Assembly (NCBI RefSeq): GCF_014836545.1
Contig: NZ_JACSQS010000007.1
Coordinates: 1 to 64,000, forward strand
Direction: 5' to 3'
DNA from: Stenotrophomonas lacuserhaii
GTDB taxonomy: Bacteria; Pseudomonadota; Gammaproteobacteria; Xanthomonadales; Xanthomonadaceae
DNA: 64,000 nucleotides
Shown: piece by piece, positions 55,279 through 64,000 of the stretch
Layout of the letters: each line of letters begins with the position of its first letter
Position numbering within the stretch: the first letter of the stretch is position 1
Program-made: the position numbers and the translations under genes
Notes under the pieces: generated by a model
The model's input: only the letters and a program-made list of their open reading frames with translations
Told to the model about the DNA's origin: nothing
Database searches by the model: none

Positions 55279-55354
55279 GCCGCTTTAGCTCAGTTGGTAG
55301 AGCAACTGTCTTGTAAACAGTAGGTCATCCGTTCGATTCGGATAAGCGGCACCA
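55279..55354 (+). tRNA. tRNA-Thr(TGT)
   Basis: The gene folds as a standard cloverleaf: acceptor GCCGCTT/AAGCGGC, D-arm GCTC-AGTTGGTA-GAGC, anticodon stem ACTGT/ACAGT with loop C-T-TGT-A-A (anticodon TGT at 55312-55314), and a T-arm with GTTCGATTC. Discriminator A; CCA is encoded. Reads ACA threonine codons. It is the integration target of the element that follows. Confidence 0.97.
55330..55354 (+). other. Putative attL: 3' end of tRNA-Thr
   Basis: Integrases of the P4 type recombine at the 3' half of tRNA genes, so the T-arm to CCA is the expected attachment core. The second copy should lie at the far island end, outside this window, and none is seen here. Inferred from the neighbouring integrase. 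Confidence 0.5.
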
Positions 55355-55527
55355 TCTTCTGCTCCGCTGGTGTCCACAGACATCCTGCAGGCACAATCAA
55401 CCAGCTGATATAGCGGGTTTTTCTGTGCCCAAGCGTACATCGAAGTCCAGTGCCATCCGCGCAAGATGGGGGTGCAACTCGGGGTACAAAGGGAATTTCG
55501 ACTGTCCGGCAGGAGGATGTACCCCAA

Positions 55528-56754
55528 ATGGCTCGTAAGTCCTTGACGGATATGGCGGCCCGAAACGCCAAGGGTAAGGAGAAGCCTTACAAGTTGTCGG
55601 CTGGGTCTGGCCTCTATTTACTGGTGATGCCCAACGGCTCCCGGTATTGGAGGATGAAGTACGCCTTTGCTGGCAAGGAAAAGTTGCTCAGCATCGGTGT
55701 CTATCCTGAGATCGCGCTCAAGGAGGCGCTGGAGAAGCGAGATGCGGCGCGTGTGCAGCTGCGAGCAGGTCAGGACCCATCCGAAGAAAAGCAGCTCCAG
55801 AAGCTCAAGGCGGAGCTCTCCTTGGATGATCGCTTTGAAGCGGTTGCTCTGGAATGGCTGGAGAGCCGAAGGGATCTGGCAGCCAGTACGTGGACCAAGG
55901 CCAAGTGGATGCTGGAGACCTACGCCTTCCCTTGGTTGGGGCGACGGCCAATTGATGGCATCAGCACTGCCGAAGTATTGGCAGTACTACGGCGGCTGGA
56001 GAGCCAGGACAAGATCGAATCCACACAGCGCCTGCGCCAGATTTGTGGCCAGGTATTCCGGTATGCCGTGGCCACAGGTCGGCTTGATAGAGATCCGACC
56101 AGCGCTCTAAGGGGCGCGTTGAAGACTGCCAAGAATCGGCACTATGCCTCGATCACGGAGCCTGCCAAGGTCGGTGAACTGCTCAGGGCAATCGACGGCT
56201 ATACGGGCCAGTTCACGACACTGTGTGCCTTGAGGCTGGCTCCTTTGGTATTCACCCGTCCTGGGGAGCTCCGAAAGGCCGAGTGGAGCGAGGTCGATCT
56301 AGAAGCGCGTCAATGGTGCATCCCCGGCGAGAAGATGAAGATGGGGGTAGCCCATATTGTTCCGCTTTCGCGTCAGGCGGTAGCGATCCTGAGGGAGCTT
56401 CAGCCTGTTACAGGAAAAGGTCGCTTCGTGTTCCCATCGATACGTAGCGGTCGTGATCCGATGAGCGAGAACACGGTGAACGCCGCGCTTCGGCGCCTTG
56501 GCTATGGCACGGACGATATGACCGGTCATGGCTTCCGTAGCATGGCGTCTACCCTGTTGCATGAGATGGGCTGGACCTCCGATGCCATCGAGCGGCAGTT
56601 GGCCCACTCTGAAAGGAATCCCATCAAGGCGGCCTACAACCGTGCTGAGCACCTGCCTGAGCGTAGGGAGATGATGCAGGCGTGGGCTGATTACCTGGAC
56701 CGCTTGCGTGAAAAGCAGTCCAGGGCTACCCAGCTCTGCGCTAAGCGCGCTTGA
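55528..56754 (+). CDS. P4-type tyrosine integrase of a genomic island
   Basis: The 408-residue recombinase has an N-terminal DUF4102 arm-binding domain (residues ~1-90, LSAGSGLYLLVMPNGSRYW), a core-binding domain and a catalytic domain. The active-site residues can be placed: Arg244 (TRPGELR), His334-xx-Arg337 (GHGFRS), His360 (LAHSER) and Tyr370 (AYNRAEH). It directs insertion at the adjacent tRNA-Thr. The ATG at 55528 is preceded by AGGAGG. Base composition falls from here on, a sign of transfer. Confidence 0.95.
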   Translation: MARKSLTDMAARNAKGKEKPYKLSAGSGLYLLVMPNGSRYWRMKYAFAGKEKLLSIGVYPEIALKEALEKRDAARVQLRAGQDPSEEKQLQKLKAELSLDDRFEAVALEWLESRRDLAASTWTKAKWMLETYAFPWLGRRPIDGISTAEVLAVLRRLESQDKIESTQRLRQICGQVFRYAVATGRLDRDPTSALRGALKTAKNRHYASITEPAKVGELLRAIDGYTGQFTTLCALRLAPLVFTRPGELRKAEWSEVDLEARQWCIPGEKMKMGVAHIVPLSRQAVAILRELQPVTGKGRFVFPSIRSGRDPMSENTVNAALRRLGYGTDDMTGHGFRSMASTLLHEMGWTSDAIERQLAHSERNPIKAAYNRAEHLPERREMMQAWADYLDRLREKQSRATQLCAKRA

Positions 56755-56806
56755 CCCCCTCCTACCCTTACTCCCAATCGAGTAGCGGTAGGACGGGGGG
56801 GGTGTC

Positions 56807-56885
56807 TGCATCAATTGAGATGATGCAAAAAAACTTGCATTGGCGTTTGTGTCGTGCGAAAGTTTGCATCATGAACATTGATGCA
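56807..56885 (+). promoter_or_regulatory. Two identical palindromes TGCATCA-N7-TGATGCA at the R-M operon start
   Basis: Perfect copies lie at 56807-56827 and 56865-56885, 58 bp centre to centre, with a half-like TTGCAT between (56835-56840). The second overlaps the ATG of the half-HsdS gene. Identical arms and identical spacer length show a specific protein-binding pair, probably an autoregulatory operator. No gene encoding an obvious cognate repressor lies in the window, apart from the HTH-carrying RhuM protein. Confidence 0.75.
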
Positions 56886-57476
56886 GAAAATTTCATGGTT
56901 GGAGAGCTGGTGTCCATTCAAGCGGGCTACCCCTTTCGCGGCTCCATTGAGGAGTCGGTCGATGGTGACGTTCTGGCGGTGCAGATGAGGGATGTTGACC
57001 TTGACCATGGGGTCAAATGGTCTGACGTCACGCGCACCACGCTTGCAGGCCGCAAACCACCTGATTGGCTCAAGGCTGGGGACATACTGTTCGTCGCTAA
57101 AGGTGCTCGGTTCTATGCCGTATGCATAGATGAGCCATCGAGCCCTGCTGTGTGCAGCCCTCACTTCTTTCTGCTCCGAGTGGCCTCCCAAGGTCTATTG
57201 CTGCCTGCTTTCCTGGCGTGGCAAATAAACCAACCGCCATTTCAGCGTCAGCTTCAGCAAGTCGCTGAAGGCAGCAGCCAGTTGAGTATCCGCCGCCCCG
57301 TACTGGAATCGCTCACGCTCTGCGTGCCGTCGCTGGTGGATCAGCAACGCATCGTTGCCCTGGCTGACCTTACCCGTCAGGAGCGCCAGGTGCTCAATCA
57401 GCTCATTCACAACCGCGAGCAGCAACTTCAAGCGCTCGCAGAGAGTCTTGTGCATGCCGCACAGGCCAGTCACTGA
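56871..57476 (+). CDS. Half-length HsdS-like specificity subunit
   Basis: The 201-residue protein has one target-recognition domain (about residues 10-140, with GELVSIQAGYPFRGSIEES) and one coiled-coil conserved region (DQQRIVALADLTRQERQVL, then LIHNREQQLQALAESL), while normal HsdS subunits have two of each. Such half subunits can act as dimers and would recognise a palindromic site. A separate full-length HsdS is encoded in the same operon. ATG at 56871, placed inside the second palindrome. Confidence 0.8.
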   Translation: MNIDAENFMVGELVSIQAGYPFRGSIEESVDGDVLAVQMRDVDLDHGVKWSDVTRTTLAGRKPPDWLKAGDILFVAKGARFYAVCIDEPSSPAVCSPHFFLLRVASQGLLLPAFLAWQINQPPFQRQLQQVAEGSSQLSIRRPVLESLTLCVPSLVDQQRIVALADLTRQERQVLNQLIHNREQQLQALAESLVHAAQASH

Positions 57477-57498: not shown

Positions 57499-59025
57499 AT
57501 GAACAGTACAACCACTGAAATCGCCTCCGTCAGCCAGGAAGACATCAATGCCGCTGTCTGGGCCGCCTGTGACACCTTCCGCGGCACCGTGGACCCGAGC
57601 ATCTACAAGGACTTCGTCCTGACCATGCTGTTCCTCAAGTACGTATCGGATGTCTGGCAAGACCACTATGACGCCTATAAGAAGCAGTACGGTGACCACC
57701 CCGAGTTGATCGAGGAAATGCTCAAGAACGAGCGTTTCGTGCTGCCCGCCAGTGCTAGCTTCTATGCTCTGCACACCTTGCGGCACAGCCCTGGCAACGG
57801 TGAGCGCATCGACAAGGCCCTGCACGCAATCGAAGAAGCCAGCATCACCAAGCTGCGCGATGTGTTCCAGGACATCAGCTTCAACTCCAACAAGCTGGGC
57901 GATGAGCAGCAGAAGAACGACATCCTGCGCCACCTGCTGGAAGACTTTGCCAAGCCCGAGCTGGATCTGCGCCCCAGCCGTGTCGGCCAGCTCGATGTGA
58001 TCGGTAACGCCTACGAATTCCTCATCAAGAACTTTGCCTCCACCAGCGGCAAAAAGGCGGGCGAGTTCTACACCCCGCCCGAAGTCTCCGCACTGATGGC
58101 GCGCCTGATGGCGCCGCAAGAGGGCGATGAAATCTGTGATCCCACCTGCGGTTCCGGGTCGCTGCTGATGAAGTGCGGTCGCCTGATCCGTGAGAACACC
58201 GGTTCAGGCAAGTACGCGCTCTATGGGCAGGAAGCCATCGGCAGCACCTGGGCGCTGGCCAAGATGAATATGTTCCTGCATGGCGAGGACAACCACCGTA
58301 TCGAGTGGGGCGACACCATCCGCAACCCCAAGCTGCTCGACGGTGCCGCCAGTCTCAAGCACTTCGACATAGTGGTGGCCAACCCCCCGTTCAGCCTCGA
58401 AAAGTGGGGCTTTGAAGGGGCCGACGCCGACAAGTTCAGCCGCTTCCGGCGGGGCGTGCCGCCACGTACCAAGGGTGATTACGCCTTCATCCTGCACATG
58501 ATTGAGACCATGAAGCCAGGCACCGGCCGGATGGCGGTGGTTGTTCCGCATGGCGTGCTGTTCCGTGGCGCTGCCGAGGGGCGTATTCGCCAGAAGTTGA
58601 TCGAAGAGAACCTGCTCGACGTGGTTATTGGCCTGCCCGAAAAACTGTTCTACGGCACCGGCATCCCCGCCGCGGTGCTGGTGTTCCGCAAGAACAAGGC
58701 CGACGACAAGGTGCTGTTCATCGACGCTAGCCGCGACTTCGAGGCCGGCAAGAACCAGAACTTGCTGCGCGAAGCTGACCTGCAGCGCATCCTGGATACC
58801 GTCGTCACACGGCAAAGCGTGGACAAGTACGCCTACCTCGCCACGCCTGCCGAGATTGCCGAGAACGACTTCAACCTCAACATACCGCGCTATGTGGACA
58901 CCTTTGAGGAAGAAGCCGAGATCGACCTGGTGGCCGTGCGCAAGGAGCGCGAGCAGCTCAAGGCCGAGCTGGCCAGCCTGGAAGCTCAGATGGCCGTCTA
59001 CCTGAAGGAGCTGGGCTATGAGTAA
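57499..59025 (+). CDS. hsdM: Type I restriction-modification DNA methyltransferase subunit
   Basis: The 508-residue N6-adenine methyltransferase has an N-terminal helical HsdM domain (about residues 10-150), the SAM motif DPTCGSGSLL at residue 214 and the catalytic NPPF at 295. It modifies host DNA together with HsdS. AGGAG precedes the ATG by ten bases. It overlaps the next gene by 8 bp. Confidence 0.95.
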   Translation: MNSTTTEIASVSQEDINAAVWAACDTFRGTVDPSIYKDFVLTMLFLKYVSDVWQDHYDAYKKQYGDHPELIEEMLKNERFVLPASASFYALHTLRHSPGNGERIDKALHAIEEASITKLRDVFQDISFNSNKLGDEQQKNDILRHLLEDFAKPELDLRPSRVGQLDVIGNAYEFLIKNFASTSGKKAGEFYTPPEVSALMARLMAPQEGDEICDPTCGSGSLLMKCGRLIRENTGSGKYALYGQEAIGSTWALAKMNMFLHGEDNHRIEWGDTIRNPKLLDGAASLKHFDIVVANPPFSLEKWGFEGADADKFSRFRRGVPPRTKGDYAFILHMIETMKPGTGRMAVVVPHGVLFRGAAEGRIRQKLIEENLLDVVIGLPEKLFYGTGIPAAVLVFRKNKADDKVLFIDASRDFEAGKNQNLLREADLQRILDTVVTRQSVDKYAYLATPAEIAENDFNLNIPRYVDTFEEEAEIDLVAVRKEREQLKAELASLEAQMAVYLKELGYE

Positions 59026-60175
59026 AGCGTCAAAACCCAGCAAGCCGACCAAGGCGATGGGTGCATCGGTGGAGTTGCAGGCATCAGCCAGCGCCGAAAG
59101 CCAGGGCGAATTCGTTCTCTACACCACAGAAGATGGCCTCACTCGCGTGGAAATGCGGGCCGAGGGCGGCTCGCTGTGGCTCAGCCAGGCAGAAATCGCC
59201 ACGCTGTTCCAGACCACGCCACAGAACGTCACCCAGCATGTAAAGGCGATCTACGCCGAGGGTGAGGCCGATCCCGAGTCAACTTGTAAGTCCAGCTTAC
59301 AAGTTCGTCAGGAGGGAGGGAGGCTTGTCCACCGCAATGTGCGCTTCTATAGCCTGGAGGTCATCCTGGCCGTGGGCTACCGGGCGCGCTCAGCACGCGG
59401 CACCCAGTTCCGCCAATGGGCCACTGCCCACTTAAGTGAATATCTCCTCAAGGGATTTGTACTCGACGATGTGCGCCTTAAGAACCCGCCTGTGGGTGAC
59501 TCGGTGCTGCCCGACCGCTTCGGCGAGTTGCTGGAGCGCATTCGTGACATTCGCGCCAGCGAGCGCCGTATGTACCTGCGAGTGCAAGAGATTTTTGCTC
59601 TAGCGGCCGACTATGCATCTTCGCTGCCTGAGACCAAGACCTTCTTCCAGGTCATGCAGAACAAGCTGCATTATGCGGTGTCGGGCCAGACCGCCGCCGA
59701 GATCATCCGCACCCGCGCCGATCGCACCCAGCCGAACATGGGCCTGACTACCTCCCGTAAGCGGCAGGTGCAGAAAGCTGACGTGGGCGTGGCTAAGAAC
59801 TATCTGGATGAAAAAGAGATCACCGAGTTGAACCGCATCGTGACTATGTGGCTGGACTTTGCCGAAGACCAGGCAACACGCCGCAAGGAAGTCTTCCTGA
59901 AGGACTGGACCGAGAAGCTCGACGCCTTCCTCAGCTTCAACGACCGCCAAGTGCTGGTGGGCGCGGGCAAGGTGTCGCACAAGCAGGCGGTGGCCCATGC
60001 ACAGAGCGAGTACGAGCAGTTTGCGGCGCAGCGACGTGCCGCACTGGAGGCGGAAGGCGAGGCCTATGCCGTCCGCATGCTCGGTGCGGAATACGCAGAT
60101 GACAAGTCTATGGCCGAGTTGGGCCAAGTAGCCAAGCGATTGACGAGTAAAAAGGGAGGTCGTGATGCTACCTAA
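59018..60175 (+). CDS. RhuM-family protein inside the R-M operon
   Basis: The 385-residue protein matches the virulence RhuM family (named in Salmonella SPI-3, function unknown). The N-terminus has a helix-turn-helix-like block, LWLSQAEIATLFQTTPQNV (residues ~53-71), followed by the family's NVRFYSLEVILAVGYRARS and a helical C-terminal half. It overlaps hsdM by 8 bp and hsdS by 11 bp. RhuM genes recur within type I R-M operons, and the HTH allows a regulatory role at the operator palindromes (inference). Confidence 0.88.
   Translation: MSKASKPSKPTKAMGASVELQASASAESQGEFVLYTTEDGLTRVEMRAEGGSLWLSQAEIATLFQTTPQNVTQHVKAIYAEGEADPESTCKSSLQVRQEGGRLVHRNVRFYSLEVILAVGYRARSARGTQFRQWATAHLSEYLLKGFVLDDVRLKNPPVGDSVLPDRFGELLERIRDIRASERRMYLRVQEIFALAADYASSLPETKTFFQVMQNKLHYAVSGQTAAEIIRTRADRTQPNMGLTTSRKRQVQKADVGVAKNYLDEKEITELNRIVTMWLDFAEDQATRRKEVFLKDWTEKLDAFLSFNDRQVLVGAGKVSHKQAVAHAQSEYEQFAAQRRAALEAEGEAYAVRMLGAEYADDKSMAELGQVAKRLTSKKGGRDAT
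59281..59305. repeat. Perfect inverted repeat inside rhuM
   Basis: AACTTGTAAG and CTTACAAGTT are perfect reverse complements separated by TCCAG, within the coding sequence of the RhuM protein. Ten pairs; could be a binding site or RNA hairpin, or chance from the codons used. Confidence 0.6.
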
Positions 60176-61394
60176 GGAATGGCACCGCTCAACGCTGGGC
60201 GAGATTGCCCGTATCACCTCGGGCGGCACGCCCGACCGGAGCAAGCCCGAATACTGGGGTGGTGACATCCCCTGGGTTACGACGGGCGAGATTCAGTTCA
60301 ACACCATCACTGATACCGGCGAGAAGATCACGGCAGCTGGCCTGCAAAATTCATCGGCCAAGCTGTTCCCGCTCGGCACGTTGCTGATGGCCATGTATGG
60401 GCAGGGCAAGACGCGTGGTCAGGTGGCGAAGCTGGGGATTGAAGCTGCTACCAATCAGGCGTGCGCAGCCATCCTACTTAACGATAATAACGACCCTGAC
60501 TATTTCTTCCAGTACCTGTCCTCGCAATACGAAGAGATTCGCGAGTTGGGTAATGCGGGAACCCAGAAGAATCTAAGCGGTGGCATCCTCAAAGGGGTAC
60601 TCGTTCCTGTGCCGCCTTATCGTGAGCAGCGTCGAATCGCCCAAGTCCTCACCACCTGGGATCAAGCCATTGCCACTGCGGAGCGGCTGCTGGCGAACAG
60701 CCAGCGGTGCACCCGTGACCTGATGGCGTCTATTTTGTCAGGCCGCCGCCGTTTTCGTGAGTTCACGGATAAATGGCGTTATGTAGATCTCGATGCCGTC
60801 TTTGTGCGGATTACGCGCAAGAACAGCACGCAGAACACCAATGTGTTGACGATCTCGGCGGAGCATGGGCTCATCAGTCAACGCGACTATTTCAACAAGT
60901 CCGTCGCCAGTGCCAACCTCAGCGGCTACACGCTGCTGCATCGGTATGACTTCGCCTACAACAAGAGCTACTCGGCTGGCTACCCGATGGGGGCAATCAA
61001 ACCGCTGTTGTCCTATGACGCAGGTGTAGTGTCGAGTCTCTACCTATGCTTCAGGATGCGCAGCGACGTGGACGCCGATTTCGACTTCTTCCGTCATTAC
61101 TTTGAAGCAGGCTTGCTGGATCAGGAGATTGAAGGCATCGCTCAAGAAGGTGCGCGAAATCATGGCCTGCTGAACGTGAGCGTGACCGATTTCTTCAAAC
61201 TGCAGCTCCACATTCCCACCGCGCCAGAACAGCGACGCATTGCTGAGGCCATCAACGTCGCGAGGGCAGATGAAGCACGGCTGAAAGCTCAAGTGCAGGC
61301 ATTGCGTCAAGAAAAAGCTGCCCTCATGTCCCAGCTCCTGACCGGCAAGCGCCGCGTCAAGTTGACGGTCAGCGAAACAGAGGTGCAGGCATGA
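60165..61394 (+). CDS. hsdS: Type I restriction-modification specificity subunit
   Basis: The 409-residue protein has two target-recognition domains (about residues 5-150 and 195-350), each followed by a coiled-coil conserved region: PPYREQRRIAQVLTTWDQAI and TAPEQRRIAEAINVARADEA. This is the full HsdS layout recognising a bipartite site. ATG at 60165 with GGAGG five bases upstream; a GTG at 60162 is in frame. It overlaps rhuM by 11 bp and hsdR by 4 bp (ATGA). Confidence 0.94.
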   Translation: MLPKEWHRSTLGEIARITSGGTPDRSKPEYWGGDIPWVTTGEIQFNTITDTGEKITAAGLQNSSAKLFPLGTLLMAMYGQGKTRGQVAKLGIEAATNQACAAILLNDNNDPDYFFQYLSSQYEEIRELGNAGTQKNLSGGILKGVLVPVPPYREQRRIAQVLTTWDQAIATAERLLANSQRCTRDLMASILSGRRRFREFTDKWRYVDLDAVFVRITRKNSTQNTNVLTISAEHGLISQRDYFNKSVASANLSGYTLLHRYDFAYNKSYSAGYPMGAIKPLLSYDAGVVSSLYLCFRMRSDVDADFDFFRHYFEAGLLDQEIEGIAQEGARNHGLLNVSVTDFFKLQLHIPTAPEQRRIAEAINVARADEARLKAQVQALRQEKAALMSQLLTGKRRVKLTVSETEVQA

Positions 61395-64000
61395 ACAGCA
61401 CGCCCAACTCCCGCGAGCAGTACAGCGCCCACTTGCCCGCGCTGCACCTGCTGTGCAACCTGGGCTGGAACTTTCTGACCACCGCCCAGACGCTGACCCT
61501 GCGCGGCAGCACGCGCGAGGTGCTGCTCAAGCCCCGGCTGATCGAGGTGCTGCAAACCCGGCGCTACGAATACAAGGGCCAGTGGTACCCGCTGTCGCCC
61601 AGCGGCATCGACCAGATCGTGCGGGAGTTGTCGGCACTCAGCCTGGCTGAAGGGCTGATGCCCGCCAATGAGCGGCTGTATGGCAGGCTGGCGCTGGGCA
61701 TCACGGTGACGGAGTTCATGCCCGATGGCAAAAAGTACCAGCCCACCATTCCCGTGATCGACTGGGCTGACGCGAATGCCAACCGCTGGGATGTGACCGA
61801 AGAGCTGGAAGTGCTGACAGCACAGGGCACGCACCACCGCACGCCGGATGTGGTGGCGTATGTGAACGGCATCCCGCTGGTGGTGATCGAAGCCAAGCGG
61901 CCGGAGTCGGGCGGCGGCAGCCACCCCGCCAAGGCGATGGTGACGGAGGGCATCAGCCAACACCTGCGCAACCAGCGGCCAGACGAGATTCCCAATCTAT
62001 TTGCCTATGCCCAGCTGCTGCTGTCCATAAGCCAGACCGAAGGGCGCTACGGCACCACGCACACGGCGGCCAAGTTCTGGGCCAAGTGGCGGGAGGAGGA
62101 GTTCGAAGACGCCCACATGCAAGCGCTCAAGAACCAGGCGCTGAAGCCGGATGTGCGCACTGCGCTGTTCGAGGGCAAGCCTGCCGCGCTGGCGGCGTAC
62201 TTCGACACGCTATGGTGCGCCCCCATGCAGGCCACCGAGCAGGACCGCTTGCTGGTGAGCCTGTTGACCCCGGCACGGCTGCTCGAATTCCTGCGCGGCT
62301 ATGTGCTCTTCGACCGCAAGGTGGGCAAGATCGTTGCCCGCTACCAGCAGTTCTTTGGCATCCGTGCACTGCTGGCCCGCATCAGTCAGAAGAAGCCCGA
62401 ATCGCAAGGTGGCGGCCGCGAGGGTGGCGTGGTGTGGCACACAACAGGCTCGGGCAAGAGCTTCACCATGGTGTTTCTGACCAAGGCACTGCTGTTGGTG
62501 GATGCCTTGAAAGAATGCCGCCTGGTGGTGGTGACCGATCGAATTGACTTGGAAACCCAGCTCGCCCGCAACTTCATGACCGGCGGGGCCTTTGGCTCCA
62601 GCATCGCCACGCAAAAGGACGGGGAAAAGAGCCGGACTCTGTCTGGTCGTGACCTGGCCCAGCGTATCGGTAAAGGCACAGAGCGCATCACCTTCACGCT
62701 GGTGCACAAGTTCAACACGGCATCCAAGCTGCCGGAGTGCCGCAACGACTCGGCCGACATGATTGTGCTCGTGGACGAAGGCCACCGCAGCCATGGCGGT
62801 GAAACGCATGAGCGCATGAAGAAGGCACTGTCCAAGGCGGCCTATATCGCCTTCACCGGCACCCCGTTGCTCAAGGACGAAAAGACGGCCAGTAAGTTCG
62901 GCCCCATCGTGCATGCCTACACCATGCAGCGCGCGGTGGAGGATGAAACCGTGGCCCCGCTACTGTACGAAGAGCGCGTGCCTGAGTTGGACATCAACGA
63001 AGAGGCGGTGAACCGCTGGTTCGAGAAGATCACCAGCAACCTCAGCGATGCCCAGCGCACCGACCTGAAAAAAAAGTTCGCCAAGAAGGGCGCCATCTAC
63101 GGTGCAGCCAACCGCATTGAGTTGATTGCCTGGGACGTCGCCACCCACTTCAACGAGAACATCAAAAAGCTGGATCTTGGCCTGAAGGGACAGATTGCCA
63201 CCGACAGCAAGGTCGACGCCATTCGCTACAAGAAGGCGCTGGACGAAACCGGCTTGGTGACCAGTGCGGTGGTGATCTCGGCCCCGGACACGCGTGAAGG
63301 CAATTCCGATGTGGACGAGGACACACTGCCCGAGGTGCAAAAGTGGTGGAAGCAAGCCATGGCCACCTGCGGCACCGATGCCGAGACCTATGAGAAGCAG
63401 GTGGTCAGTGACTTTGGTACTGACGGTGCCCCTGACCTGCTGATCGTTGTAGACAAGCTGCTGACGGGCTTTGATGAGCCCCGCAACACGGTGCTGTACA
63501 TCGACAAGCCCCTAAAAAGACACAACCTGATTCAGGCCGTGGCCCGCGTCAACCGTCTGCATGACGCCAAGCGCTACGGCGTATTGGTGGACTATCGAGG
63601 GATCTTGAAGGAACTCGACACCGCCATCCGCTCCTACCAGGACTTGGAAGCTCGCACGCAAGGCGGCTTTGATATCAGCGACCTGGAGGGCCTGTACCGA
63701 CAGTTCAACACGGAGTACAAGCGCCTGCCTGCTTTGCACGATGCGCTGTGGTCGTTCTTCGAGTCCGTAACTAACAAACTCGACAGCGAGCAGTACCGGC
63801 AGGTACTGGCACCGAAATTTGTGAAGGGTAGCGACGGCGAGGAGTATGACGAGCGGCAGAAGCTGCGAGACGACTTCTACGAGGCACTGACAGCCTTTGG
63901 TCTGTGCTTGCAGACGGCGCTTTCATCCCGCAGCTTCTTCGAGGACAAGAGCTCTTCTGAAGCGCAGATCGCCCGGTACAAGGCTGATCTACGCTTCTTC
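61391..64000 (+). CDS. hsdR: Type I restriction-modification endonuclease/translocase subunit (partial)
   Basis: The gene starts at ATG 61391, overlapping hsdS, and is open for 870 codons up to the window edge, so the 3' end is missing. An N-terminal PD-(D/E)xK nuclease has Asp153 (TPDVVAYV) and Glu167-Ala-Lys169 (VIEAK). The SF2 translocase has Walker A TTGSGKS (near 352-356), DEGH at 462 and later motifs TGTPLL, LLTGFDEP and QAVARVNR. It cuts DNA lacking the HsdM mark after translocation. Confidence 0.95.
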   Translation, partial: MNSTPNSREQYSAHLPALHLLCNLGWNFLTTAQTLTLRGSTREVLLKPRLIEVLQTRRYEYKGQWYPLSPSGIDQIVRELSALSLAEGLMPANERLYGRLALGITVTEFMPDGKKYQPTIPVIDWADANANRWDVTEELEVLTAQGTHHRTPDVVAYVNGIPLVVIEAKRPESGGGSHPAKAMVTEGISQHLRNQRPDEIPNLFAYAQLLLSISQTEGRYGTTHTAAKFWAKWREEEFEDAHMQALKNQALKPDVRTALFEGKPAALAAYFDTLWCAPMQATEQDRLLVSLLTPARLLEFLRGYVLFDRKVGKIVARYQQFFGIRALLARISQKKPESQGGGREGGVVWHTTGSGKSFTMVFLTKALLLVDALKECRLVVVTDRIDLETQLARNFMTGGAFGSSIATQKDGEKSRTLSGRDLAQRIGKGTERITFTLVHKFNTASKLPECRNDSADMIVLVDEGHRSHGGETHERMKKALSKAAYIAFTGTPLLKDEKTASKFGPIVHAYTMQRAVEDETVAPLLYEERVPELDINEEAVNRWFEKITSNLSDAQRTDLKKKFAKKGAIYGAANRIELIAWDVATHFNENIKKLDLGLKGQIATDSKVDAIRYKKALDETGLVTSAVVISAPDTREGNSDVDEDTLPEVQKWWKQAMATCGTDAETYEKQVVSDFGTDGAPDLLIVVDKLLTGFDEPRNTVLYIDKPLKRHNLIQAVARVNRLHDAKRYGVLVDYRGILKELDTAIRSYQDLEARTQGGFDISDLEGLYRQFNTEYKRLPALHDALWSFFESVTNKLDSEQYRQVLAPKFVKGSDGEEYDERQKLRDDFYEALTAFGLCLQTALSSRSFFEDKSSSEAQIARYKADLRFF

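Follow-up and report, generated by a model that had tools for sequence, protein, structure and literature searches.

Paired palindromes at a type I restriction-modification promoter and a half-HsdS protein as their candidate autoregulator

Which protein reads the two identical palindromes at the head of a type I restriction-modification (R-M) operon of Stenotrophomonas lacuserhaii, and what would its binding do there? In the window (the whole 64,000-nucleotide stretch of DNA that was analyzed), the upstream operator (op1, TGCATCA-ATTGAGA-TGATGCA; positions 56807-56827) lies just 5' of the -35 position of a predicted promoter, and the downstream operator (op2, TGCATCA-TGAACAT-TGATGCA; 56865-56885) covers the predicted +1 together with the start codon of the operon's first gene (ATG, 56871-56873), neither being assigned to a strand. 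Both have perfect arms and a 7-bp spacer, and they start 58 bp apart; the initial annotation was right to describe palindromes with identical arms and equal spacers, the second of which includes the start codon. A pattern scan of the whole 3.93-Mb genome returned op1 and op2 as the only exact copies of TGCATCA-N7-TGATGCA. The reversed control pattern had no matches in the same genome, and by our own estimate a 14-base pattern would turn up by chance about 0.015 times per genome. Allowing two mismatches added 12 further places, scattered over the genome. The palindrome pair is real and not a product of chance.

The operon runs on the + strand and begins with the gene of a half-HsdS of 201 amino acids (56871-57476), which has one target-recognition domain and a 45-residue C-terminal helix and which we propose as the operator-binding autoregulator. 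There follow HsdM, the N6-adenine methyltransferase subunit (57499-59025; PF02384, TIGR00497); a RhuM family protein (59018-60175; PF13310), a variable cargo of the operon that is missing in other operator-bearing loci; a full-length HsdS of 410 amino acids, the variable specificity subunit (60162-61394; PF01420); and HsdR (61391-64000; TIGR00348), which continues past the end of the window. Together with the half-HsdS, the operon of the window encodes an HsdM and an HsdR, both recognized by Pfam or NCBIfam. Across loci the full HsdS proteins are 25-74% identical whereas the HsdM proteins are mostly more than 85% identical, a difference that would be a sign of frequent specificity exchange.

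When 35 relatives were aligned on the ATG, a -35-like hexamer (TTGACA at -36 to -31) and a -10-like hexamer (YATTAT at -13 to -8) became apparent, separated by a 17-bp spacer. They sit between the two palindromes, which bears out the earlier view that the pair flanks the promoter. In the window, this ATG-anchored profile places the predicted -35 hexamer at TTGCAT (56835-56840, + strand), about 8 bp beyond the end of op1, and the predicted -10 position at GAAAGT (56858-56863, + strand). Both hexamers are weak, a consensus promoter scan of the window returned no promoter and no exact match, and the promoter may be weak or in need of help. The conserved profile predicts a sigma70-type promoter with transcription starting at or next to the ATG, and consequently a leaderless mRNA; with the start predicted there, op2 covers the predicted start point. 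In four loci (L012, L018, L020 and L029) the start codon has shifted by one codon (GTG-ATT-GAT-GCA) and the palindrome there has its usual spacer, which places the constraint on the DNA and not on the first amino acids of the protein.

The initial annotation let its reading stand or fall by the conservation of the palindromes in homologous islands, and the pair is conserved there. Nearly all of the 27 close relatives that were fetched, mostly Burkholderiales, carry both palindromes. Most distant homologues (29-55% identity), drawn from the window's own family, from other Gammaproteobacteria and from plasmids of Alpha-, Beta- and Gammaproteobacteria, carry them too, and the pair still precedes the same first gene, that of half-HsdS, in relatives with as little as about 29% identity. 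Under the relaxed site form TGCnnnA-N7-TnnnGCA, 68 of 76 half-HsdS loci have at least one site and 58 have at least two, compared with 21.5 and 2.8 in dinucleotide shuffles, in a sample in which some loci are near-duplicates and the start codons of distant homologues were assigned by alignment. Eight of the 76 loci have no recognizable site and several others have only one. The spacer is strictly 7 bp: there are 63 exact matches to TGCnnnA-Nk-TnnnGCA with k = 7, and none of the other values of k between 3 and 12 yields more than one. Furthermore, when the inner base was left free it was A in 110 of 120 arms. Note that the sites were partly picked by the tested pattern, so that per-position conservation is biased, the ATG-anchored table and the spacer and inner-base tests less so. 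In the genomes of 14 relatives, exact palindromes occur at the half-HsdS promoter only, and all matches elsewhere are mismatched. The distance from op1 to op2 is 57-60 bp in most loci (about 5.5 helical turns) and 44-54 or 70-76 bp in others; strict same-face helical phasing of the two operators was not seen across the loci, and since their spacing varies, looping on the same face is not required. The cooperative repression that the initial annotation read from the pair is therefore no more than a possibility. The strong conservation of sequence, position and spacing supports the original proposal that these are operators controlling the R-M operon.

As for the binder, half-HsdS was missed by the initial annotation and is the best candidate. 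Common to the loci is a half-HsdS with an HsdM, whose gene follows in 74 of the 76, usually accompanied by HsdR, and half-HsdS is the subunit that has a DNA-reading domain. The half-site follows this protein, being TGCATCA in the main clade, TGCATGA in Gluconobacter (L221), TGCACCA in Komagataeibacter (L226), TGCAGCA or TGCAGTA in L210, and TGCTGTA in Methylocystis (L230). In a partial Mantel analysis of 65 loci, operator distance was correlated with the distance between recognition domains, given helix and HsdM (r = 0.33, 0 of 500 permutations), and it followed neither the helix (r = -0.02) nor HsdM (r = 0.04). Moreover, the two operators of one locus share middle triplets above the level of shuffled pairs (2.29 versus 2.00, 0 of 5000). 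This covariation is correlational, and the permutation and triplet tests correct only partly for common descent.

We reject the full HsdS for the same role: it varies among loci with constant operators, its recognition domains are unlike that of half-HsdS, and it is missing in three Variovorax loci (L022, L023 and L024), which have half-HsdS, HsdM and HsdR, with an extra Abi_2-like gene in one. An integrase-related site is also disfavored, as operators are found at loci with no neighboring integrase. In these Variovorax loci half-HsdS may be the sole specificity subunit; of the HsdS genes elsewhere in their genomes, those in the two loci examined follow a different HsdM.

The half-HsdS of the window has no Pfam or NCBIfam match at 1e-3. 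The profile of its family matches the HsdS of Thermoanaerobacter (3e-7), its matches among structures being 5ybb and 3okg (3e-7). Its AF2 model (pLDDT 87.6, pTM 0.82) is that of a single recognition domain with the 45-residue C-terminal helix and resembles single halves of the HsdS structures 1yf2, 5ybb, 3okg and 7bst (Z 13-16). Model and profile thus present the traits of a half-HsdS subgroup, a recognition domain and a conserved dimer helix in about 200 amino acids. The top structural match of the model is the stand-alone Esub1 (PDB 8vsq, 8vsr; Z 19.7). The likeness lies in the stand-alone half-HsdS fold; Esub1 differs in that it was crystallized with Prx (paratox, a streptococcal phage protein). 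We know of no link between Esub1 and operators.

The operators, their conservation and spacing, their covariation with the recognition domain and the predicted fold are all read from sequence, and they point to a type I R-M operon that is autoregulated through these operators, the binder probably being a half-HsdS homodimer, alone or with HsdM. We give this reading a probability of a little over three in four. What we infer from them, namely binding, the sign of regulation and any involvement of HsdM, would take the following course. Each recognition domain would read its own half-site of 7 bp (TGCATCA), with the 7-bp spacer fixed by the dimer helices in the manner of the symmetric targets of truncated HsdS. 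The dimer, perhaps with HsdM, would occupy both sites and control its own operon. Occupancy of op2 would block initiation, repression via this start-site operator being the most likely outcome, and op1, beside the -35 hexamer, would strengthen binding or activate as in C-protein systems. Autoregulation would in this way limit how much of the whole system is made. The initial annotation likened the pair to designs that delay restriction after entry into a new host, an idea that finds no support here: hsdM, hsdS and hsdR follow the promoter in what seems to be a single operon, and with the M and R genes together the promoter would set the level of the whole system and not a delay of restriction relative to modification. 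Full HsdS normally works with HsdM, so that binding by a stand-alone half-HsdS is uncertain. The length of the half-site, 7 bp as against the 3-5 bp of known type I half-sites (Table 1, PMC12707154), also counts against a half-HsdS autoregulator.

The operators could instead be primarily methylation targets, a reading that we regard as possible and rather doubtful. HsdM with two half-HsdS subunits would methylate the inner adenine of each half-site, the A of the ATG among them, and the methylation state would set promoter activity as an epigenetic switch. This is compatible with, and partly nested in, autoregulation by half-HsdS. The inner A is conserved, as described above, and the 7 bp between inner adenines lie in the range of type I families (6-9 bp). 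HsdM nearly always follows half-HsdS, the Variovorax loci have HsdM and HsdR with half-HsdS only, and HsdM is able to methylate palindromic targets when combined with an engineered half-HsdS (PMC6158711). However, it would be extraordinary for a methyltransferase to have a 14-bp target that occurs twice in the genome, and the inner A is perhaps kept merely as a binding contact. A bolder version, which we offer as speculation, is that the two sites in its own promoter are the only genomic targets of half-HsdS, which with HsdM would both bind and methylate them, the A of the start codon included. If this were true, the assembly and activity of the enzyme would feed back directly on its transcription.

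Readings in which half-HsdS takes no part fare worse. The binder is unlikely to be an unrelated dimeric repressor, whether a host regulator or RhuM, the candidate originally named. RhuM has an HTH-like stretch, seen by eye in its sequence, and RptR sets a precedent for a dedicated small repressor in type I operons (PMC12255303). However, several loci lack RhuM and yet have intact operators: it is missing in L016, L022, L023 and L024 and in annotated plasmid loci such as L216, L219, L220, L221, L223 and L226, most of which have clear operators. A host regulon is at odds with the finding that, in hosts of many genera, exact sites stand at this promoter only, with no exact copies elsewhere in the genomes scanned, and an unrelated protein of either kind with the finding that operator sequence tracks the recognition domain of half-HsdS. 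Control of translation by RNA hairpins over the start codon is very improbable. In the window the two palindromes, each the inverse of the other, fold well as RNA (z -3.5), but op1 is 5' of the -35 hexamer and would lie outside the mRNA, and the arms of op2 pair at just 4-6 of 7 positions in other clades. Furthermore, the predicted start at the ATG would remove the left arm, and RNA from the ATG onward has no special fold (z -0.5).

Autoregulation by half-HsdS can be set beside several known systems. Type I targets are bipartite with spacers of 5-9 bp, a geometry that the operator core TCA-N7-TGA fits; this core has the form of symmetric truncated-HsdS targets and would presumably be one. EcoR124I-delta targets GAA(N7)TTC, with 7 bp between target adenines, the same spacing as in the operators described here, and EcoDXXI-delta targets TCA(N8)TGA, with 8 bp between them (Table 1, PMC12707154). 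An engineered half-HsdS was found to dimerize and, with HsdM, to methylate a palindrome; the same authors drew a parallel between dimers of half-HsdS and dimeric repressors, for example BmrR (PMC6158711, 2018). These three truncated HsdS proteins resemble the protein of the window in having one recognition domain with a dimer helix and a symmetric bipartite target. They are, however, products of the laboratory or of mutation, studied for their role as specificity subunits of methyltransferases, whereas the half-HsdS described here is encoded by a natural first gene, usually beside a full HsdS, and its apparent target has a longer half-site and lies in the promoter of its own gene. Regulatory methyltransferases of the M.SsoII and M.Ecl18kI type, in which an R-M enzyme component likewise controls transcription, use an added N-terminal HTH domain. 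Here, in contrast, the regulator would be the DNA-reading subunit of a type I enzyme, and no HTH was found fused to HsdM, whose Pfam matches were HsdM_N and N6_Mtase only, besides weak methylase matches.

C proteins share with our proposal an autogenous control and the placing of the sites, one upstream of the promoter and the other over it (PMC12707154), but they are small lambda-repressor-like HTH proteins and none is encoded here. The initial annotation correctly stated that no C-protein gene is adjacent: neither such a family nor a small HTH controller gene was found among the six window proteins scanned (Pfam, NCBIfam), and the operons of the minimal loci L022 and L023 have no such controller gene either. 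RptR, too, is encoded first in its type I operon and exerts negative control via multiple palindromic promoter sites (PMC12255303). It differs in being a 79-residue four-helix protein that binds the 6-bp TAGCTA; in the window the first gene is that of half-HsdS, and the sites are TGCATCA-N7-TGATGCA and not of the TAGCTA type. RptR and the C-type protein that regulates a type I operon in Mycoplasma gallisepticum (PMC12707154) are the dedicated type I transcriptional regulators that we found described, and neither resembles half-HsdS. The open literature, outside of which most subscription papers lie, yielded no account of a half-HsdS acting as a regulator, and priority is not guaranteed.

A specificity subunit turned autoregulator, present across Alpha-, Beta- and Gammaproteobacteria and on plasmids, would mean that a common defense system is controlled in a way not described before, and it would realize the likeness between half-HsdS dimers and dimeric repressors proposed in 2018 (PMC6158711). 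The pairing of operator variants with recognition domains also provides a route to read HsdS recognition from promoters.

The surroundings of the operon offer some further observations. The island boundary is marked by a tRNA-Thr (TGT) gene (55279-55354), followed by a tyrosine integrase (55450-56754). Between the integrase stop codon and op1 (56755-56798) lies a 19-nt imperfect inverted repeat, C-rich and G-rich, a possible terminator without a T-run. The crystal of Esub1 with Prx raises the possibility that phage proteins target stand-alone half-HsdS proteins. Finally, the cargo around hsdM, hsdS and hsdR varies (L024, L216, L219, L228, L229 and L230), comprising RhuM, a PDDEXK nuclease, Fic, Shedu, an Abi_2-like protein, a Ser/Thr kinase and DUF4868, and the interval looks like a hotspot of defense genes.
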